From: a virus
IMG/VR virus record: IMGVR_UViG_3300048591_000441
Coordinates: 1-45,537 of that record
DNA: 45,537 nucleotides
Strand: one strand, 5' to 3'
The number at the start of each line of letters is the position of its first letter. Within the stretch, counting starts at the first letter, position 1. Below, piece after piece: positions 14,848-45,454 of this stretch. Position numbers and translations under genes: made by a program. Under the pieces are notes generated by a model that did not search any database, had not been told where the DNA came from, and saw only the letters and a program-made list of their open reading frames with translations.

Positions 14848-15039
14848 ATTTTCGGGCCTTTCTTTCTGTGGATCACAAGGGGGATCTGTTATTCATCTCT
14901 CACAACCTACATATCTCTTATCGGCTGATTGGCAGAAATCGTTAGCGAAAACGGTTACTTACCGAATACCATTGGTCTTTTGACATAGGTTTAATCATAC
15001 TCTGACAAACACCCAATGAAATCGGAGGCTTAAAAACCT
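14848..15039. promoter_or_regulatory. Divergent control region between the two central operons
   Basis: This 192-base gap separates the minus-strand recombination operon from the plus-strand DNA-modification operon. On the plus strand TTGACA (14980-14985) is a consensus -35 box. No good -10 box sits 16-18 bases beyond it, the nearest being CATACT (14996-15001) at poor spacing. An eight-base inverted repeat ATAGGTTT (14985-14992) / AAACCTAT (15034-15041) ends on the first start codon. GGAGG (15024-15028) would serve the first gene. Confidence 0.45.
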
Positions 15040-15603
15040 ATGGCCATGGAGATCGTGCATCGTGATCTTTCGTCACTAATCCCCTACGCGAACAACCCTC
15101 GGGTCAACGATCACGCGGTTGATCAGATGATCGCGGTCATCGAAGAATTCGGGTTCAAAATTCCGATGCTCGCTCGATCGAATGGCGAGATCGTCGATGG
15201 GCATTTGCGATTCAAAGCCGCGACCAAGATGGGATTGCCCGAGGTCCCGGTGATTCTCGTCGATGATTGGTCTGAGGCTCAGATCAAAGCCGCTCGCCTC
15301 GTCATCAACAAATCAGTGTCATGGGCTGAGTGGGACAATCATAAACTCAAAGATGAGTTTGCTGCATTGCAGGCACTCGACTTTGATCTGAACTTCACCG
15401 GCTTCAATCAATCCGAGCGCGATCTCATTATGAAAGGCTGGGAGTCTGATCACGAGGGCCTGAGCAAGATCAAAGAGAACGAGGACGGGATTCCCGTGAA
15501 GATCACTCTGACCGTGCCGCAGGCAATGAAGCAGGAGATCAAGGATTGGCTAGAGGGCATGATCGAAGATAGCGAGTATGTCCATGACATCAAACTTTCC
15601 TAA
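15040..15603 (+). CDS. Stand-alone ParB/Srx-fold protein next to DpdA
   Basis: The product is 187 residues. The N-terminal 90 residues have the ParB/sulfiredoxin nuclease-like fold: DLSSLIPYANNPR, a helix with HAVDQMIAVIEEFG, then the key NGEIVDGHLRFKAA motif and LVINKS. In many phages this domain is fused to a DNA methyltransferase. Here it stands alone and its C-terminal 90 residues are unrelated. It overlaps the dpdA start by 26 bases, so the two are probably co-translated. Inference: it may bind or guide DNA for the transglycosylase, in the same way that the fused versions help DNA-modifying enzymes. Confidence 0.8.
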   Translation: MAMEIVHRDLSSLIPYANNPRVNDHAVDQMIAVIEEFGFKIPMLARSNGEIVDGHLRFKAATKMGLPEVPVILVDDWSEAQIKAARLVINKSVSWAEWDNHKLKDEFAALQALDFDLNFTGFNQSERDLIMKGWESDHEGLSKIKENEDGIPVKITLTVPQAMKQEIKDWLEGMIEDSEYVHDIKLS

Positions 15604-16444
15604 GCTGAACCTTCTCTGCGCTTATCCATATTTCAAGCAGCCGGTCATCGAAGTGATGAAGAGCCGCACCTTTCAGGAGAACACCAACGTGCTCGTGGAC
15701 TCTGGCGCGTTCACGGCATGGAAGGCCGGCAAGCCGATTCGCCTGCAAGACTATCTGAGGTTTCTCGATTCACTTCCGTATCAGCCCTTTGGCTATTTCA
15801 TGCTGGATGTCATCGGGCAGCCGGATCAGACCCGCGCGAACTACTCGCAGATGTATGAACTGGGCTATCGACCCATCCCGATTTTCACGCGCGGCGAGGA
15901 CTTCGACGAACTCGAAAACTACTACGAGCGCACCGACTATGTTGGGGTGGGCGGGCTCGTGAAGACCCCAGGTGCTCAAGGATTCGTCAAGCGGATCATG
16001 CAGAAGATCAATGGGCGCAAGGTTCATCTTCTTGGCTTTACGAATCAGGTCCTTCTGAAAGCAACCCGCCCATACTCTGTCGATGCCTCCTCATGGTCGG
16101 CTGCGCTCACCTATGCTCGGCTGGCTATCTATGTCGGCAATGGTCGATGGATCTCACTCGGCAAGAAGGATTTTCAGAAGCAACCCAAGCCGGAAGTTCT
16201 TGCAGCGCTTTCACGTTATGACGTAGATTACCTCGATCTTGCCAAACAAAAAAACTGGCGTAACAGCGGCAAAGGTGATGTTGCAATCGAGCATCTAACC
16301 TTTCGATCGTTCATCCGTTACGCGACCGACATCGAGCGGGCTATCGGCACGAAATACTTTCTGGCCATCGCCTCTGACTGGCAAGCAAAGCTGGCTTTGG
16401 ACGCCTACCTGTGGGCGAAAGAAAAATATGGAGGTTCGACATGA
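15578..16444 (+). CDS. dpdA: DpdA, DNA 7-deazaguanine transglycosylase
   Basis: The product is 288 residues. DpdA proteins are DNA-acting relatives of tRNA-guanine transglycosylase that swap guanine bases in DNA for preQ0 or a derivative. Matching features are DSGAF with Asp41, GYFMLDVIGQP, a VGVGGL motif (residues 122-127), HLLGF (150-154) and YSVDASSW with Asp169. The two aspartates fit the general acid/base and nucleophile positions of the family. The cysteine zinc site of tRNA enzymes is not evident, as expected for the shorter phage forms. It lies directly upstream of queC, queD, queE and folE, whose products supply its substrate. A second ATG six bases on is possible. Confidence 0.88.
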   Translation: MSMTSNFPKLNLLCAYPYFKQPVIEVMKSRTFQENTNVLVDSGAFTAWKAGKPIRLQDYLRFLDSLPYQPFGYFMLDVIGQPDQTRANYSQMYELGYRPIPIFTRGEDFDELENYYERTDYVGVGGLVKTPGAQGFVKRIMQKINGRKVHLLGFTNQVLLKATRPYSVDASSWSAALTYARLAIYVGNGRWISLGKKDFQKQPKPEVLAALSRYDVDYLDLAKQKNWRNSGKGDVAIEHLTFRSFIRYATDIERAIGTKYFLAIASDWQAKLALDAYLWAKEKYGGST

Positions 16445-17133
16445 AGCGTCTTGTATTGCTAAGCGGCGGCATGGACTCATCAACGGTTCTGGGCTATGTG
16501 CGGTCGATCGCTCTCAAGGGCGAAGAGATCGCGGCCCTCTCATTCGAGTATGGCAGCAAGCACAATGAAGCGGAGTGGGAAGCGGCTCAGAACGTGGCAC
16601 ATTTCTATGGTGTGGAGATCGACCGCGTGCATCTCGACTTCATCGCGCGTCTGTTCAAGTCTGACCTGCTGGCTTCCGGAGAGGAGGTCCCGGAGGGTCA
16701 CTATGCCGACGACTCCATGAAAAAAACCGTGGTCCCTTTCCGCAACGGGATCATGCTTGCGATCGCGGCTGGCTATGCAGAGAGCAATGGCTATCAGGAA
16801 ATCTACCTAGCAAACCATGCCGGGGATCACACGATCTACCCCGACTGTCGGCCTGAGTTCACGGAAGCGATGCACATGGCTGTGAAGCATGGGACCTGGG
16901 CGGGCATCGAATTCGTTGCGCCGTTCATGAATCTCAGCAAGGCGACGATCTGCAAGCTCGGGGTGTCGCTCGGGGTCCCGCTCGATCTCACGTGGTCATG
17001 TTATAAAGGCGGGGATGTGCATTGCGGGGTCTGTGGCACCTGCCATGAGCGCAGAGAGGCTTTCATGCTCGCGGGCGTCGACGACCCTACCGAGTATCTT
17101 GAAACGCCTCCCTTGCCTGCTGTGGGGGCCTGA
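16441..17133 (+). CDS. queC: QueC, 7-cyano-7-deazaguanine (preQ0) synthase
   Basis: The product is 230 residues, from ATG 16441 with GGAGG upstream. QueC converts 7-carboxy-7-deazaguanine to preQ0 with ATP and ammonia. The N-terminal LLSGGMDSST is the PP-loop ATP pyrophosphatase signature. FEYGSKHN and NGIMLAIAAGYAE are typical. Cys187, Cys195, Cys198 and Cys201 (in CGVCGTC) make the structural zinc site. There is no fused amidotransferase domain, unlike the Gat-QueC proteins that make archaeosine-type bases in some phages. That suggests the end product inserted is preQ0 itself. The start overlaps the dpdA stop by four bases. Confidence 0.95.
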   Translation: MKRLVLLSGGMDSSTVLGYVRSIALKGEEIAALSFEYGSKHNEAEWEAAQNVAHFYGVEIDRVHLDFIARLFKSDLLASGEEVPEGHYADDSMKKTVVPFRNGIMLAIAAGYAESNGYQEIYLANHAGDHTIYPDCRPEFTEAMHMAVKHGTWAGIEFVAPFMNLSKATICKLGVSLGVPLDLTWSCYKGGDVHCGVCGTCHERREAFMLAGVDDPTEYLETPPLPAVGA

Positions 17134-17136
17134 GCC

Positions 17137-17574
17137 ATGAAAATTTCAATCATGAGGACTCTGGAGTTTGATGCTGCTCATCGGGTGATGCACCATGAGA
17201 GCAAATGCGCCAACATGCATGGTCACAGATACAAGGTCGAGATCCACGCCCGCGCTGCGGAACTCGATCCGCTCGGTCGCATCATCGACTTCTCTGCGAT
17301 CAAAGCCCGCATCGGCGGGTGGATAGATACCCATTGGGATCATACGACGATCCTTCATGAGAACGATCCATCTGTCAGAGCGTGGCAGTCTGATCTCATT
17401 CCCTTCAACAAACCCATCTATCTGATGCCCGAGAACCCGACCGCCGAGAACATGGCCAAGTATCTTCTCGCCAAATGCAATGACGAGCTGATGCTCGGGA
17501 CAGCGATCGAGGTCTACAGGGTTGTTATCTGGGAAACCCCGAACTGCAAAGCGGAGGCGGCGCTGCTGATATGA
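17137..17574 (+). CDS. queD: QueD, 6-carboxy-tetrahydropterin synthase
   Basis: The product is 145 residues. QueD turns dihydroneopterin triphosphate into 6-carboxy-5,6,7,8-tetrahydropterin, the second step of the preQ0 route. Visible hallmarks are FDAAHR with His15, CANMHGHRY (Cys24 nucleophile, His28 and His30 zinc ligands), DFSAIK, the WDHTTIL catalytic region and NPTAENMA. Length is normal for the family. The gene starts three bases after the queC stop and overlaps queE by four bases. Confidence 0.95.
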   Translation: MKISIMRTLEFDAAHRVMHHESKCANMHGHRYKVEIHARAAELDPLGRIIDFSAIKARIGGWIDTHWDHTTILHENDPSVRAWQSDLIPFNKPIYLMPENPTAENMAKYLLAKCNDELMLGTAIEVYRVVIWETPNCKAEAALLI

Positions 17575-18233
17575 AGACCTATCGAGTCAAAGAGATCTTT
17601 GGTCCAACGCTCCAGGGTGAAGGCACTCATGCTGGTCGTGCGGTGATCTTCCTTCGGTTTGCTGGTTGCAATAAGTGGAACGGTCGCAAGGAGAGTAAGC
17701 CAAACTCGGTCTGTTACTACTGCGACACGGACTTCACAGGTGGCGAGAAGATGACAGCCGTGGAGATCGAACAGGCTATAGTTGATCTCGCGGAGAGGCA
17801 TGGACACGTCTATGCCCTTGGCAATTACCATGTGGTCATCTCGGGCGGGGAGCCGATGATGCAGCTCGACGAAGGGCTCGCGGAACTCCTGAGCCGTCAG
17901 CATTTTCTGCATCTTGAAACCAACGGCTCCATCCCGATCTCCCCTCTGATCAATCGCCATCTCAAGCATGTGACCGTTTCCCCGAAACAGCCATGGTCGG
18001 AAACGAAAGTGCGGTATGCAGAAGCGCTCAAGCTTCTGTTCCCATACCTGGGCAGCATGGGCTCGCTCGTGTCGCTCGATTCATTCCATCAGTTCAAGGC
18101 TGGCGAAATTTTCATTCAGCCAATCCTTGACGAAACGTATGAGGCAAACCTTAAGGGCGCTATCGGGGAATGTCTTAAGAACCCGCATGTGCGTCTCTCA
18201 CTTCAGCAACACAAAATTCTGGGGCTTCAATGA
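17571..18233 (+). CDS. queE: QueE, 7-carboxy-7-deazaguanine synthase (radical SAM)
   Basis: The product is 220 residues. QueE is a radical S-adenosylmethionine enzyme that rearranges 6-carboxytetrahydropterin to 7-carboxy-7-deazaguanine. FGPTLQGEG is the family start motif. The iron-sulfur cluster cysteines are Cys33, Cys48 and Cys51, a C-x14-C-x2-C spacing used by one group of QueE enzymes rather than the usual radical SAM C-x3-C-x2-C. VISGGEP is the SAM-binding GGE motif. ETNGS and VSPK follow in order. Overlaps with queD and folE by four bases each indicate a tightly coupled operon. Confidence 0.95.
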   Translation: MKTYRVKEIFGPTLQGEGTHAGRAVIFLRFAGCNKWNGRKESKPNSVCYYCDTDFTGGEKMTAVEIEQAIVDLAERHGHVYALGNYHVVISGGEPMMQLDEGLAELLSRQHFLHLETNGSIPISPLINRHLKHVTVSPKQPWSETKVRYAEALKLLFPYLGSMGSLVSLDSFHQFKAGEIFIQPILDETYEANLKGAIGECLKNPHVRLSLQQHKILGLQ

Positions 18234-18814
18234 TGACGATGAATCGACGCGAGCAGGTAGAAGAGCACATCAGAGGGATCATGCAACTGTTTGATCTTGA
18301 TCTGAACGATGAGTCGCTGCGCGACACTCCGAAGCGGGTTGCGAAAATGTTCGAGGCCGACCTGTTCTGGGGTTTGAAGGAGGAGCACATCCCTTCGATG
18401 ACGACCCAGGAGAGCAAGGGCTATAACGAAATGCTCATAGAGACGAACATCACCGTCAACAGTCTTTGCGAGCATCATCTGGTTCCAATCATCGGATCTG
18501 CCCACATCGCATACATCCCGAACGATCGGATCCTTGGGCTCTCGAAGTTCAATCGCATAGTCGATTACTTTTCGCGCAGGCCGCAGGTTCAGGAAAAGCT
18601 AACGAAGAACATCAAAGACTTTCTGGTCAAGGTCTTGAACACCGAAGACGTAGCCGTGGTTATCGACGCAAGCCACATGTGCGTTAGAATGAGAGGGATA
18701 CGTGACCGCGCATCCATCACCCGCACCAACATGCTGGGAGGTCGATTCATGGCGGGCGAAGTGAGAGCCGAGCTGTTTGCCTCTCTGCCCAAGCCTTCGG
18801 ACCTCCAGCTATGA
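18230..18814 (+). CDS. folE: GTP cyclohydrolase I (FolE)
   Basis: The product is 194 residues. FolE opens the GTP ring and forms dihydroneopterin triphosphate, the first step toward preQ0. Diagnostic segments are DTPKRVAKMF, the zinc and catalytic motif SLCEHHLVP (Cys80, His82, His83), GLSKFNRIVDYF, the RPQVQEKLT stretch, and ASHMCVRMRGIRD with the third zinc ligand. It completes a GTP-to-preQ0 pathway with queD, queE and queC. Gene order is the reverse of pathway order. The start overlaps the queE stop by four bases; a second ATG at 18233 is also possible. Confidence 0.96.
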   Translation: MMTMNRREQVEEHIRGIMQLFDLDLNDESLRDTPKRVAKMFEADLFWGLKEEHIPSMTTQESKGYNEMLIETNITVNSLCEHHLVPIIGSAHIAYIPNDRILGLSKFNRIVDYFSRRPQVQEKLTKNIKDFLVKVLNTEDVAVVIDASHMCVRMRGIRDRASITRTNMLGGRFMAGEVRAELFASLPKPSDLQL

Positions 18815-18827
18815 GAAGGGTTCGAGC

Positions 18828-19304
18828 ATGGCTGGACCGAAACCCCCGGCCCGAGATCGAAAGTCAAAACCTGTAATATCAGATCGCCCAGACCGCAGAG
18901 GACCGAAGTTGAAGGGACCAACGACTGAGGAGGACTTTCAGGTCTTCGAGTCGCTCTGCAAGATCCAATGCACGCTGCACGAGGTTGCGGCGTTCTTCAA
19001 TTGCGACACTGACACGATTGAGAAGCGGGTGCGCGAATTCTACGGGATGAAATTTTCGGAAGTTTTTCGGGTAAAAAGGAAAGCCGGGATAGTCTCGCTA
19101 CGCCGCATGCAGTATGAGAAAGCACTGGCAGGAAACACCACAATGCTTATCTGGCTTGGGAAACAGTATCTCAACCAAATGGAAGAACCTGCGCCGCATG
19201 ACCCAGACCCGATAACGAACAACCGGACTGATGAGGAGATCGAGGAGGAAATAGAGCGCCGCATCAAGCGCCGCATGGACCGCGAGGCGAGGATGAAAAA
19301 ATGA
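18828..19304 (+). CDS. Terminase small subunit (probable)
   Basis: The product is 158 residues from ATG 18828, with GAAGGG upstream. It lies directly before the large terminase gene and overlaps it by four bases. The sequence has a basic N-terminus, a helix-turn-helix-like segment (LHEVAAFFNCDTDTIEKRV), a helical middle typical of TerS (GNTTMLIWLGKQYLNQ) and a highly charged C-terminal coiled coil rich in Glu and Arg. TerS binds phage DNA and regulates the packaging motor. Family sequence identity is always low, so the call rests on position, fold pattern and the conserved WLGKQYL-type motif. Confidence 0.85.
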   Translation: MAGPKPPARDRKSKPVISDRPDRRGPKLKGPTTEEDFQVFESLCKIQCTLHEVAAFFNCDTDTIEKRVREFYGMKFSEVFRVKRKAGIVSLRRMQYEKALAGNTTMLIWLGKQYLNQMEEPAPHDPDPITNNRTDEEIEEEIERRIKRRMDREARMKK

Positions 19305-20749
19305 GGACCCAATCCATCGAGCTATTGGAGGACATGCGCGAGTCTGATCTCAGGTGGGCTCGCAAGGATCTTTTGGAGTTCATTCTTGAGATCATGCCTC
19401 AGTACAAGGTCAATTTTCATCATCGCATCATCTGTGATCGTCTGACGAAACTCCTCTGGCAGAAAGGCCAGAGGCTTATTGTTTGTGTCCCGCCTCAGTA
19501 TGGCAAGAGCCAGATAGTCAGCCGATGCCTTCCGGCCTTCGTTCTCGGCAACGACCCGAAGGCCAAGATCATCATGGGTTCCTACTCAGCGTCACTCTCC
19601 ATGACATTCAATCGAGCCGCCCAGGCGGTGATGGAATCGGAACGCTATCGGCAGATATTCCCCGACACTCTGATCAGACCATTCGCGCCCAGAAAGTTCA
19701 TGCGCACAGCCCAGCTCTGCGAGACGAGCGAGTATGGATACCTATATACGGTTGGCGTTGGCGGCTCGACCACAGGCCGATCGGCTGATCCTCTGTTGAT
19801 CATTGATGACCCCTTCAAAGACTGGAAGGAAGCCCTATCACCAGTGAGACGGCAGAACGTCATTGATTGGTTCGGCTCCGTTATCGAGTCCCGTCTCTCG
19901 CTGAATGCCAATGTCGTGATCGTTCAGACCCGCTGGCACGAGGGCGATCTGTCCGGCTATCTCCTCAAGCGGGCACTCGAAGATAAGGAAGCGACTCAGT
20001 GGGAGCTGCTTAACTTCCCCGCGATCGTCGAGTCGATGGACGAGCTGCATCCTGAAGATCCAAGAAAAATGGGCGAGGCTCTTTGGCCAGAGGTCAAAGG
20101 CGACGCCGCGAAGCTATCAAGGATTAAGAAGGATGTTGGGTCTTATATCTTCGCTGCACTCTGGCAGCAAAGGCCGCGATCGGCAACAGGAAACATCGTC
20201 GATCCCAAATGGTGGCGGCGTTATCGGGTCATTCCGCATGACTTCGAGGAAATGATCATTTCATGTGATGCCGCTTTCAAGGACTTCGAGACGAGCGACT
20301 ATGTCGTCATCCAGGTCTGGGGTCGCAGGGGAGTTGACAAGTATTTGGTGGATCAGCGCAGGGATCACATGGATATCATCCGAACCTGCAAAGAACTTGT
20401 TAACATGAAAGTGAAGTACCCGGATTGCGATTCGGTTTATGTCGAGGACAAAGCGAATGGAACACCGATCCTCCAATTGCTTAAGAAGAAAGTCAGCGGC
20501 CTAATCGCTGTCGAGCCGGAAGGTTCCAAGGTCGCCCGCGTTCACTCGGTGTCGCCACAGATCGAGGCGGGCAATGTCTACCTTCCTGATGAAAGCATAG
20601 CCCCGTTCCCCATTGACAAGTTCATCGAGGAGTTCAGCAACTTCCCACTTGCAGACAACGACGATCAAGTGGATGCTGCCACTCAGGCACTAGAGAAATT
20701 ATCGGAAGGCGAGAACCACTACCTGCGAGCCCTTTTGGGAAAGGAGTAG
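19301..20749 (+). CDS. terL: Terminase large subunit (TerL)
   Basis: The product is 482 residues. TerL is the ATP-driven motor and nuclease that packages DNA into the prohead. The Walker A variant PPQYGKS is at residues 64-70 and Walker B LLIIDD at 165-170. TRWHEGDL follows as the coupling region. The C-terminal nuclease has SCDAAF (Asp323), VEDKANG (Glu382, Asp383) and a DDQVDA metal motif near residue 455. Length is normal. The class resembles terminases of Mu-like and DUF1073-portal phages, often headful packagers, but the mode cannot be fixed from sequence. Confidence 0.96.
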   Translation: MRTQSIELLEDMRESDLRWARKDLLEFILEIMPQYKVNFHHRIICDRLTKLLWQKGQRLIVCVPPQYGKSQIVSRCLPAFVLGNDPKAKIIMGSYSASLSMTFNRAAQAVMESERYRQIFPDTLIRPFAPRKFMRTAQLCETSEYGYLYTVGVGGSTTGRSADPLLIIDDPFKDWKEALSPVRRQNVIDWFGSVIESRLSLNANVVIVQTRWHEGDLSGYLLKRALEDKEATQWELLNFPAIVESMDELHPEDPRKMGEALWPEVKGDAAKLSRIKKDVGSYIFAALWQQRPRSATGNIVDPKWWRRYRVIPHDFEEMIISCDAAFKDFETSDYVVIQVWGRRGVDKYLVDQRRDHMDIIRTCKELVNMKVKYPDCDSVYVEDKANGTPILQLLKKKVSGLIAVEPEGSKVARVHSVSPQIEAGNVYLPDESIAPFPIDKFIEEFSNFPLADNDDQVDAATQALEKLSEGENHYLRALLGKE

Positions 20750-42565: not shown

Positions 42566-42592
42566 ACTCCTGCCTTTGGGTGGGGTTTTTTC
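42566..42592 (+). terminator. First of two tandem terminators (weaker)
   Basis: ACTCCTGCC and GGTGGGGT can pair with one or two mismatches or bulges (about 42566-42586) and are followed by TTTTTT. It precedes the stronger hairpin and lies just downstream of the structural operon's last gene. Confidence 0.45.
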
Positions 42593-42601
42593 CGCTTCTC
42601 G

Positions 42602-42639
42602 ACCACCGCTGGCATCCCGCTCGGCGGTGGTTTTTTTTT
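42602..42639 (+). terminator. Rho-independent terminator ending the structural operon
   Basis: ACCACCGC (42602-42609) pairs with GCGGTGGT (42624-42631), loop 14 bases, followed by nine T residues. It separates tail genes from the 42652-45454 module. The next ATG is only 13 bases later, so that module relies on read-through, an internal promoter or antitermination. Confidence 0.85.
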
Positions 42640-42651
42640 CTTGGGGGAATC

Positions 42652-43086
42652 ATGTTCAAGCATACCATCCTTCGGATCGAGCCCGGCAAGCGCATCATTG
42701 ATCTCACTGAGAGGGTTCAGACGGCCGTCAGGACTTTGAATCTTCGGTCAGGGCTCTGCAATGTCTATTCGAGACACACAACTCTAGGGCTGCGGATCTA
42801 TGAGTTCGAGCCCTTGCTGATGAGTGACACGATGCGAAAGCTTGAGGACTTTGCGCCTCGATACGATCGGTATGCCCACGACGACCTCGATTGCAGGGAC
42901 GTTCCTTTCGACGAGCCGGTGAATGGTCATAGCCACATCAAGAGCCTTCTGGTAAATACAAGTGAAACGATACCTGTTCTTGACAACATGCTTCAACTCG
43001 GGCGCTGGCAGCGTCTGCTCGCGTTCGAGCTTGATGATCCGAGAGGGCGGGAAATAATGATTAGCCTCGTGGGGGAATTCGTATAA
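42652..43086 (+). CDS. YjbQ/UPF0047-family protein
   Basis: The product is 144 residues from ATG 42652 (MFKHTILRI), with GGGGGAAT upstream. The family motif is clear: VYSRHTTLGLRIYE, the acidic HDDLDCRDVPFDEPVNGHSHIKSLLV region with conserved His, then LQLGRWQRLLAFELDDPRGREIM and the terminal GEF. YjbQ proteins are widespread trimeric or hexameric proteins; a weak thiamine-phosphate synthase activity has been described for the E. coli member and the physiological role is unclear. It starts the module whose other genes make and transfer a polyol phosphate. It overlaps the next gene by one base. Confidence 0.9.
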   Translation: MFKHTILRIEPGKRIIDLTERVQTAVRTLNLRSGLCNVYSRHTTLGLRIYEFEPLLMSDTMRKLEDFAPRYDRYAHDDLDCRDVPFDEPVNGHSHIKSLLVNTSETIPVLDNMLQLGRWQRLLAFELDDPRGREIMISLVGEFV

Positions 43087-44072
43087 TGAGCAAGCGTGTG
43101 CCGGTGGCTTTCTTTGTAAACAACCATGGGTATATTTCTCACTTCCTCCCATTGATCGAACGCCTCCCCGAGATCCACCCGATCATCATCACCACGGTCA
43201 AGGAAACCGCGATCTACGCAAAGCAGATCCTTGGCCTGGAAGCCGTATCAGTCCTGCGCGACGAGCATCTATGGCAGGAGGTGAGACGCCAAGGGATCCT
43301 CAATGTCATTTCATGCTATCAGAAAATGCAGTCAGGGGATTGGCGGGCGCTCAACACAATCCAAATTTTCCACGGCGTCTCATTCAAAGGTCCCGATCTT
43401 GCGAACTGGAAGCCCGAGCGCTGGCAGCATCTCATGATTCAGGGAGAGCATTTCTGGGAGCCCTATCGCACGAGATACCCTGCATTTGTGGATCGAATGA
43501 AGCGGACATCATTCACGCGAGCCTATTGTTATGAAGATGTCCCCGAGTGGAACAAGAAGGCTCCCGTGCTATATATGCCATCGCATCGGGACTCTGGGCT
43601 CCTATCGCTGCGAGAGAACATCAGGCTGATGATAAGCCTTGGGCTCGATGTCATCGTAAAGCTTCACCCGATAAATCATTTGCACGAGGCTTTCATGCAA
43701 GGGGTTTATCAGCTTTTCAGGCACACCGAGCGGGCGCAGCTTATCACTCACGATGACCCTCGCTACTTTCGATACGATGAACTGATGAAGCAATCGAGCT
43801 GTCTCGTTTCGGATTTCAGTTCGGTCGTCTGCGAATACACCTTGCTCGATCGCCCGATCGTGATTCTGAGAGGCGGACCCGACAAGGCCATGCGGCACAA
43901 CGCCCGCGACAACCGACACCTGGAGCCCAGCCTCTTTCATGTCGGTGAAGATCGCAGGGTCGATCGCACGATCCATGACGCGATCATTGACTACAAGCCG
44001 GGGCAGTATCCTGATCTCTATATCAAGGATGGCCAGGACATCTGTCAGGCCATCAGAGAGGCATTGCGATGA
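43086..44072 (+). CDS. CDP-glycerol/ribitol phosphotransferase-like protein (Glyphos_transf family)
   Basis: The product is 328 residues. It resembles the CDP-glycerol glycerophosphotransferase family (TagB/TagF/TarL) that adds glycerol- or ribitol-phosphate to teichoic acids and capsules. The family cues are in the C-terminal half: VKLHPINH (residues 191-198), then LITHDDPRYFRYDELMKQSSCLVSDFSSV, in two parts, with SDFSS at 242-246, and EYTLLDRPIVI. Aromatic and His-rich stretches in the N-terminal half (NTIQIFHGVSFKGPDLANW) fit the GT-B fold. No membrane segment is evident. The acceptor is unknown. It overlaps neighbours by one and four bases. Confidence 0.85.
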   Translation: MSKRVPVAFFVNNHGYISHFLPLIERLPEIHPIIITTVKETAIYAKQILGLEAVSVLRDEHLWQEVRRQGILNVISCYQKMQSGDWRALNTIQIFHGVSFKGPDLANWKPERWQHLMIQGEHFWEPYRTRYPAFVDRMKRTSFTRAYCYEDVPEWNKKAPVLYMPSHRDSGLLSLRENIRLMISLGLDVIVKLHPINHLHEAFMQGVYQLFRHTERAQLITHDDPRYFRYDELMKQSSCLVSDFSSVVCEYTLLDRPIVILRGGPDKAMRHNARDNRHLEPSLFHVGEDRRVDRTIHDAIIDYKPGQYPDLYIKDGQDICQAIREALR

Positions 44073-44260
44073 TCAGCACAGAGGATCGGGACGCATCGCT
44101 TGCTCTCCTGAATTCGCTGGATGAGTCAAGGCGCTATCTGAAAATGCTGAGCGATGCCTGGGAGAAACGACTCGAACATATCACCATCAGTCTCCGTGAC
44201 GATCCGATCAAGCGGATCAATGAGCGCATTCGTTGCGATTGGGAGGCAATGCACAGATGA
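44069..44260 (+). CDS. Small helical protein in the polyol-phosphate module
   Basis: The product is 63 residues, charged and helical. It starts four bases inside the phosphotransferase gene and its stop overlaps the cytidylyltransferase start by four bases. These overlaps show co-translation. No motif. It might be an adaptor or regulator of the module. Confidence 0.6.
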   Translation: MISTEDRDASLALLNSLDESRRYLKMLSDAWEKRLEHITISLRDDPIKRINERIRCDWEAMHR

Positions 44261-44970
44261 ACATAACCGCTCTTGTTCTAGCGGCTGGCGCCGGATCGAG
44301 GTTCGGCTGTGACAAGATGGAGATTCAGATCCATGGGCTGAGGCCTTGGGAGATTGTTGAGCAGAGGCTGCGACCTCTTGTCAATTCGTTGGTGGTTATT
44401 GGAAAGGATATTCCGGGTGGGGAATCAAGGCGGGAAAGTGTTCTGCGGGGGCTCGCCCATGTGAAAACTGATCGTGTTATCATTGCAGAGGGTGCGAGGT
44501 TCTTACCGTCAACCTCTGATTACGAACTCGCCATTCGATCCGAGGGGTCAGCCGTGGCCTTCGGATCACCTTCCATCAACTCTGCTGTGCTCAAAGTCTC
44601 CGCATCATTCACGCCGATCCCTCGTCATCTGATGAATATTATCCACACGCCACAGGTATTTGATACGGGGCTGCTTCGTCAAGTGCTCGATCGTTATGGG
44701 CACCTCTCTGATGGGGATGAATGGTCTTTGATGGCGACCCTTAACCAATGGGACTGTCGGGTGATACCGGGGTCCTGGCGGACCGGGCTTAAGCTGACGT
44801 ATCCAGGGGATCTCGAACTGATGGAGATGGCTTTCGATGCTGGAGCAACAACACAGGATAGTCGTGGTGGGCGCGGGGTCCGACATCGCGCAGGCGCTTC
44901 TCATGCGGATCAGATCGGGACCCTGGCTGAAAGCTGCGAAGGTAAAAGCATTCAGCAGCGCGGAGCTTGA
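44257..44970 (+). CDS. IspD/TarI-type cytidylyltransferase (predicted CDP-polyol synthase)
   Basis: The product is 237 residues from ATG 44257. It fits the IspD/TarI family that couples a polyol phosphate to CMP to give CDP-ribitol, CDP-methylerythritol or similar. Features in order are ALVLAAGAGSRFG (residues 5-17), GGESRRESVLRGL, VIIAEGARFL where canonical enzymes have HDAARP, IHTPQVFD, DGDEWSLM and LKLTYPGDLELMEM. The family's usual end falls near residue 194. The last 43 residues (after AFDAG) are read from the 5' end of the next gene in another frame and look non-native. The adjoining dehydrogenase and phosphotransferase favour ribitol or another polyol over isoprenoid synthesis. Confidence 0.85.
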   Translation: MNITALVLAAGAGSRFGCDKMEIQIHGLRPWEIVEQRLRPLVNSLVVIGKDIPGGESRRESVLRGLAHVKTDRVIIAEGARFLPSTSDYELAIRSEGSAVAFGSPSINSAVLKVSASFTPIPRHLMNIIHTPQVFDTGLLRQVLDRYGHLSDGDEWSLMATLNQWDCRVIPGSWRTGLKLTYPGDLELMEMAFDAGATTQDSRGGRGVRHRAGASHADQIGTLAESCEGKSIQQRGA

Positions 44971-45454
44971 TGTCACCAACCAAAGCCAGATGACGAGGAT
45001 AACGATGGCGAGGCCCGAGACTCTTATCGTGTTCGCGGGAGTCATCAAACCGGAAGCTGTCACGGGCGGGTCTGTGAGTGCATGGCATCGACAGATCAAT
45101 GTCAATCTCCTCGGATCCTACAATTGCGTGCAAGCCGCTCTCTCAGTGAATCCCAGATGCCGGATCATTCTGATCGGATCATCGGCGGCGCGGAAGGCCA
45201 GGGCAACCTGGAGCGCATACTGCGCATCGAAAGCCGGGCTCACGATGTTCGTCGAGTGCATGATCAAGGAAGGGGTTGATGCGTGGTGTTTGAACATAGG
45301 GCGAACGGCAAGCAAAATGCGCCGGGGTCTTTTCCCTGATGAGGACCAGGGTGCTCTGATGCAGCCCGATGTCGTCGCAAATGAGATCGTTCAGATCATG
45401 CTGAATCGGAGAGTCGATCGGATATCCTGGCTCGCACGAGGTCGGGATGTATGA
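44837..45454 (+). CDS. Short-chain dehydrogenase of the CDP-ribitol capsule type
   Basis: The product is 205 residues. It has the Rossmann start IVVVGAGSDIA (residues 8-18), catalytic Ser115/Ser116 in IGSSAARK and Tyr128-x3-Lys132 in YCASK. The C-terminal RTASKMRRGLFPDE resembles the ribulose-5-phosphate reductase domain of Acs1/Bcs1, which makes ribitol-5-phosphate for CDP-ribitol. Its ATG is preceded by GGAGATGGCTTTCG and lies inside the cytidylyltransferase gene; the two overlap by 134 bases. Together the two products correspond to the two halves of one Acs1-like enzyme. Confidence 0.85.
   Translation: MLEQQHRIVVVGAGSDIAQALLMRIRSGPWLKAAKVKAFSSAELDVTNQSQMTRITMARPETLIVFAGVIKPEAVTGGSVSAWHRQINVNLLGSYNCVQAALSVNPRCRIILIGSSAARKARATWSAYCASKAGLTMFVECMIKEGVDAWCLNIGRTASKMRRGLFPDEDQGALMQPDVVANEIVQIMLNRRVDRISWLARGRDV

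Follow-up and report, generated by a model that had tools for sequence, protein, structure and literature searches.

A virus record of 45,537 bases (IMG/VR IMGVR_UViG_3300048591_000441; the whole analyzed stretch is hereafter called the window) contains, at positions 15040–18814 of the plus strand, a single tight operon of six genes, encoding a ParB-like protein, DpdA, QueC, QueD, QueE and FolE. With a probability of about 0.8, it represents a self-contained phage system for the partial replacement of DNA guanine with 7-cyano-7-deazaguanine (dPreQ0), in which the ParB-like protein most likely acts as the partner of DpdA. The successive genes are separated by −26, −4, +3, −4 and −4 nucleotides (nt), the first value being the overlap of the ParB-like gene with dpdA. 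A sequence-only reading had named folE, queD, queE, queC and dpdA; all five were found where it placed them, on the plus strand, but the ParB-like gene was overlooked, the operon start that it gave (15040) being the start of that gene.

In the proposed pathway, FolE, QueD, QueE and QueC would successively convert host guanosine triphosphate to dihydroneopterin triphosphate, 6-carboxytetrahydropterin, 7-carboxy-7-deazaguanine and free preQ0, and DpdA would then exchange guanine for preQ0 in phage DNA already synthesized. The ParB-like protein would most likely serve as a DNA-handling partner of DpdA that uses nucleoside triphosphate (NTP), like DpdB in bacterial dpd islands. The expected end product is dPreQ0, since no recognized enzyme for further conversion of the base is encoded. 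A known anti-restriction chemistry of DNA is thus placed in a phage lineage that is represented here by metagenomic contigs alone, and the added interest of the operon lies in the pairing with a ParB-like gene and in sister phages carrying a DpdC-like gene.

Genes for preQ0 synthesis

All four enzymes of preQ0 synthesis match their own families, and their catalytic residues are retained. QueC exceeds the equivalog cut-off of TIGR00364 (185.8 against 150.3 bits), contains the SGGMDS loop and the four-cysteine zinc motif, has 2pg3 as its best PDB match and is a stand-alone protein without an amidotransferase domain. FolE is likewise above the cut-off of its family NF006824 (202 bits). The score of QueE with TIGR04508 (160 bits) is below the cut-off of 240; its cysteines align with those of a solved 7-carboxy-7-deazaguanine synthase (PDB 4njg, E = 3.6e-34). 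QueD scores slightly below the equivalog cut-off of TIGR03367 (85.3 against 89.25 bits) but retains HxH, the zinc motif, together with Cys, Asp-His and Glu where E. coli QueD would lead one to expect them; the roles of these residues are established knowledge.

Genes for known enzymes of further base conversion are absent. No match to GATase_6 or to an ArcS-type domain was found in the whole 45.5-kb record, and DUF6884 (PF21818) was not detected in the window. The search for QueF in the whole record returned FolE alone, below the cut-off; the match, at 18494–18658, was rejected as a reductase because it is part of FolE, a fold relative. The absence of Gat-QueC and of a QueF-like reductase, previously claimed from the sequence, was therefore borne out, and gene content together with intact active sites supports both preQ0 as the predicted base and independence from host genes for preQ0 synthesis.

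Identity of DpdA

An AlphaFold model of DpdA, built from 36 relatives, has a predicted local distance difference test score (pLDDT) of 92.9, and the 50 best rows of its VIA-align search are all tRNA-guanine transglycosylase or DpdA entries (Z 12.7–13.4). Among them are the DNA preQ0 insertase DpdA (7ui4; Z 13.2, 237 residues, 3.8 Å) and a tRNA-guanine transglycosylase (2z1v; Z 13.4), so the protein is predicted to have the fold of this enzyme class. A PDB search with the sequence itself gave nothing useful.

Residues D41, D77, D169 and H150 are invariant in all 76 dereplicated homologues, and H150 aligns with H196 of phage 9g, the histidine described for phage DpdA. No widely conserved cysteine column is present among the 76 homologues; accordingly, DpdA seems to lack the zinc site of tRNA enzymes. 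In the phylogenetic tree, DpdA of the window belongs to a clade of 30 members (support 100/99), outside of which phage 9g branches; DpdA of mycobacteriophage CRB2 and that of the window fall into separate clades.

ParB-like gene adjacent to dpdA

The ParB-like protein scores 24 bits with ParB_N (PF02195), marginally below the cut-off. Its AlphaFold model (pLDDT 86.6) matches ParB/Noc chains, with a best E of 1e-6 and 26 chains at E ≤ 0.001, so that the protein is assigned the ParB/sulfiredoxin fold. The neighborhood of dpdA was surveyed in the best 80 of 419 viral loci found with the DpdA alignment, a selection skewed to relatives of the window, and in reference phages. A ParB-like gene lies immediately upstream of dpdA in 64 of 93 cases; after dereplication at 90% identity, it is present at 52 of 76 DpdA genes and absent at 21, three being cut by the contig end. 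It accompanies 27 of the 30 members of the DpdA clade of the window versus 1 of 15 in the group with 9g. The adjacency, mostly with overlapping genes, persists among DpdA proteins down to ~25–30% identity. Thus, genes for the DNA transglycosylase frequently have a ParB-like gene next to them.

Bacterial DpdB is a ParB-like ATPase belonging to the machinery of preQ0 insertion (PMC12839542), and the authors of the CRB2 study suggested ORF1 of that phage as a possible DpdB. By analogy, the ParB-like protein probably assists DpdA as a partner that depends on NTP. There is some chance, although a rather small one, that it is instead a separate regulator or the remnant of a ParB–methyltransferase fusion, located beside dpdA by coincidence. 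In phage records, the sequences most similar to it (up to ~51% identity) are for the most part ParB domains of DNA methylases from phages, which indicates that the domain moves between systems, and PADLOC labels the gene MTase_II. However, adjacency across DpdA proteins as distant as those listed above exceeds what a chance neighbor would keep, and the role of DpdB in bacteria also speaks for a functional partnership.

Several surveyed operons (L066, L085, L041, L053, L078 and L079) contain two DpdA genes, and L066 and L085 also have two or three ParB-like genes; the two DpdA proteins of one operon could recognize different target motifs.

Predicted modified base and sister phages

Three sister contigs, L006–L008, are ~78–84% identical to the window at the nucleotide level and contain a single additional gene precisely at the queC–queD junction. 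The blastn breakpoints at the insertion are 5909/6315 in L006 versus 17133/17124 in the window. The extra gene of L006 (5915–6331) encodes a DUF6884 protein (PF21818, E = 2.3e-18) with weak similarity to YaaA, which retains both motifs known from descriptions of this family, CxxxK and LSAxxG; a tblastn search with it against the window gave no match. A match to DUF6884 is reported for bacterial DpdC (PMC11888242), the enzyme that converts dPreQ0 to 2'-deoxy-7-amido-7-deazaguanosine (dADG). Because this gene is present in their operon and absent from the window, the sister phages may produce dADG while the phage of the window may stop at dPreQ0. The close operons, differing in the presence of a DpdC-like gene, form a natural pair for determining which gene sets the final base.

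Genes for DUF6884 proteins were also found in the 7-deazaguanine operons of L018, L023, L041, L053, L064 and Acinetobacter phage HD01; one is listed for L086 too, and their positions within phage 7-deazaguanine operons vary. Among 32 records checked, the domain occurs in 6 of 16 with QueC versus 1 of 16 without it. It also occurs in many mycobacteriophages, the dpdA status of which was not part of the comparison, so that DUF6884 by itself proves nothing.

Taken from gene content, dPreQ0 is likely and is the best-supported product. It is improbable that a host enzyme, or the product of an unrecognized phage gene, turns the inserted preQ0 into dADG, 2'-deoxyarchaeosine (dG+) or 2'-deoxy-7-aminomethyl-7-deazaguanosine (dPreQ1). 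The DUF6884 gene of the sisters, several genes without assignment in the left arm of the window and the minor dADG in DNA of phage Rosebush (PMC6884629) could favor such a conversion; against it stand the lack of DUF6884, QueF, GATase and ArcS-type domains in the window and the finding that phages of the same gene content contain nearly all of the modification as dPreQ0 (PMC6884629). More broadly, it is proposed tentatively, with somewhat less than even confidence, that most phage DpdA proteins outside the 9g branch are two-part DNA transglycosylases, in which DpdA is loaded or aimed on DNA by a ParB-like protein that binds NTP, and that close relatives switch their final base, dPreQ0 or dADG, through the loss or gain of one DpdC-like gene between queC and queD.

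In bacteria, FolE, QueD, QueE and QueC feed queuosine synthesis, and the operon could by the same token supply preQ0 for host tRNA or another purpose. This is very improbable, since the transglycosylase belongs with the phage DpdA enzymes (it has their histidine and a ParB neighbor, and no cysteine column is widely conserved), QueF is absent from the record and phages carrying this gene set have modified DNA (PMC6884629).

Two other gene combinations were noted among the surveyed operons. L019, L020, L024, L025, L029, L030, L075 and L076 encode the ParB-like protein, DpdA, FolE, QueD and usually QueE, with no QueC in the record; in these operons a methyltransferase-like gene directly follows dpdA, with Pfam support in L075 only. 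Such operons may insert a base derived from the 7-carboxy intermediate. The operons of ten loci (L011, L019, L021, L022, L024, L025, L027, L028, L031 and L052) encode a small protein with the motif VDDIIDTG, like that of type I phosphoribosyltransferases; it has no Pfam match in these loci and might salvage the released guanine.

Avoidance of restriction sites

Palindromes of 6 bp are strongly avoided in the window, 439 being observed versus 737 expected from a Markov model (ratio 0.60), while the ratio for direct repeats, used as a control, is 1.07. ATCGAT, CTCGAG and TCGCGA are absent (expected 43, 25 and 19, respectively), as are TTCGAA and CTGCAG. Some GATC-containing palindromes (TGATCA, CGATCG) are not avoided. 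The sites of ClaI, XhoI, NruI and PstI are the most avoided, and those of EcoRI and HindIII are not avoided. The ratio is 0.35 in CRB2, 0.56 in a sister contig and 0.58 in Stenotrophomonas phage B2, in the annotation of which dpdA is absent; in 9g-type genomes it is 0.74–0.85. The assumption that modification has relaxed selection on restriction sites was rejected, since avoidance persists. The window, CRB2, the sister contig and B2 behave alike. Selection against such palindromes has therefore persisted in this lineage in spite of the operon, although the evidence for this is indirect.

This pattern fits partial or motif-bound modification, or a recent gain of the operon. A full shield against restriction is unlikely, and the protection conferred would probably be incomplete, so that it may be asked which nucleases are actually blocked by the modification. 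An attempt to deduce the modified motif from the set of avoided palindromes revealed no clear pattern.

Evidence against the proposed system

Several results weigh against the proposed interpretation. The Pfam tRNA-guanine transglycosylase family PF01702 gave no match in the whole record, although all 14 control genomes matched, and DpdA of the window is only ~27–31% identical to the 9g- and mycobacteriophage-type enzymes of isolated phages; given the missing Pfam match, its identity rests on phage protein families, fold and residues. The loci of 9g and FritzHoffmann contain no ParB-like neighbor of dpdA, and DpdB is described as dispensable in certain dpd clusters (PMC12839542). For the ParB-like protein, ParB_N was the only domain at E ≤ 0.01, and DndB, a domain that bacterial DpdB is reported to contain, was absent; for this reason it is proposed to work like DpdB and is not claimed to be DpdB. 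Finally, the persisting avoidance of palindromes argues against complete protection.

Genome organization

The first 105 bases of the window are repeated exactly as its last 105 bases; because of this terminal repeat, the contig is probably a complete genome, and the gene absences described above therefore carry meaning. Among the products of the right arm are portal, head, tail sheath, tape measure and baseplate proteins, indicating a contractile-tailed phage. The genes of the left arm lie on the minus strand and include those for RecT-like and Gam-like proteins. The content of guanine and cytosine (GC) is 54%. Scanning of bacterial and archaeal genomes with DpdA of the window revealed no relative and no close DpdA.

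The features of the operon and its surroundings are listed in Table 1. The gene of the putative small terminase subunit starts 13 nt past folE and is followed by that of the large subunit; no family match was obtained for the small subunit protein. In a scan of the operon for promoters and terminators, matches were no more numerous than in shuffled sequence. At 42580–45454, genes for a UPF0047 protein, a CDP-glycerol glycerophosphotransferase-like protein, an IspD/TarI-like cytidylyltransferase and a short-chain dehydrogenase follow one another, a row that looks like a polyol-phosphate surface-modification cassette.

Table 1. Features of the predicted dPreQ0 operon and adjacent terminase genes (window coordinates)
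Feature	Position	Strand	Evidence or remark
GGAGG ribosome-binding site of ParB-like gene	15024–15028		Found by reading the sequence
ParB-like protein, 187 aa	15040..15603	+	Candidate DpdB-like partner; phrog_620, E = 2.4e-44
DpdA, DNA guanine transglycosylase, 288 aa	15578..16444	+	phrog_887 (queuine tRNA-ribosyltransferase), E = 9.6e-31
QueC, preQ0 synthase, stand-alone	16441..17133	+	PF06508, E = 2e-61
queC–queD junction	17134..17136	none	Site of the extra DUF6884 (DpdC-type) gene in sisters L006–L008
QueD, 6-carboxytetrahydropterin synthase	17137..17574	+	PF01242, E = 4.5e-32; phrog_2389, E = 6.9e-42
QueE, radical S-adenosylmethionine 7-carboxy-7-deazaguanine synthase, CX14CX2C type	17571..18233	+	TIGR04508, E = 5.9e-47
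FolE, GTP cyclohydrolase I	18230..18814	+	NF006824, 232 bits; PDB 4du6, E = 1e-49
Putative small terminase subunit	18828..19304	+	By position only; CRB2 encodes its small terminase subunit at this place
Large terminase subunit	19301..20749	+	phrog_38, E = 3.1e-109

Comparison with known systems

The operon is a new example of the known dPreQ0 system of the Rosebush/CAjan/CRB2 type. Its closest known arrangement is that of mycobacteriophage CRB2, through which the module of subcluster B2 (Rosebush-type) was compared here, and in which the order ParB–DpdA–QueC–QueD–QueE–FolE–TerS–TerL is identical. The proteins are distant (~29% identity for DpdA and 17% for the ParB-like protein), and CRB2 is a phage of Bclasvirinae with ~70% GC, in contrast to the phage of the window with its tail sheath and 54% GC.

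Escherichia phage CAjan, previously offered as the example for this operon, indeed shares its five enzymes without an amidotransferase, but the gene order matches CRB2 instead, and DpdA of the window belongs to a strongly supported clade separate from the 9g-type enzymes. The relatives of CAjan that were compared in its stead, 9g and FritzHoffmann, have a looser cluster with a different gene order, a Gat-QueC and no ParB-like neighbor. The Asp and His residues conserved in DpdA of the window are shared by that of 9g; 9g, with Gat-QueC, produces dG+, whereas the window encodes plain QueC and no GATase domain. In Rosebush and CAjan, which have the same enzymes and no amidotransferase, dPreQ0 accounts for ~28% and ~32% of G, respectively, and CAjan deprived of dpdA was no longer modified or resistant to restriction (PMC6884629).

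Bacterial dpd islands (dpdA, dpdB, dpdC and the restriction genes dpdD-K) resemble the operon in combining DpdA with a partner of the ParB superfamily; they differ in containing DpdC, no gene of this type being present in the window, and in the DndB domain reported for their DpdB.

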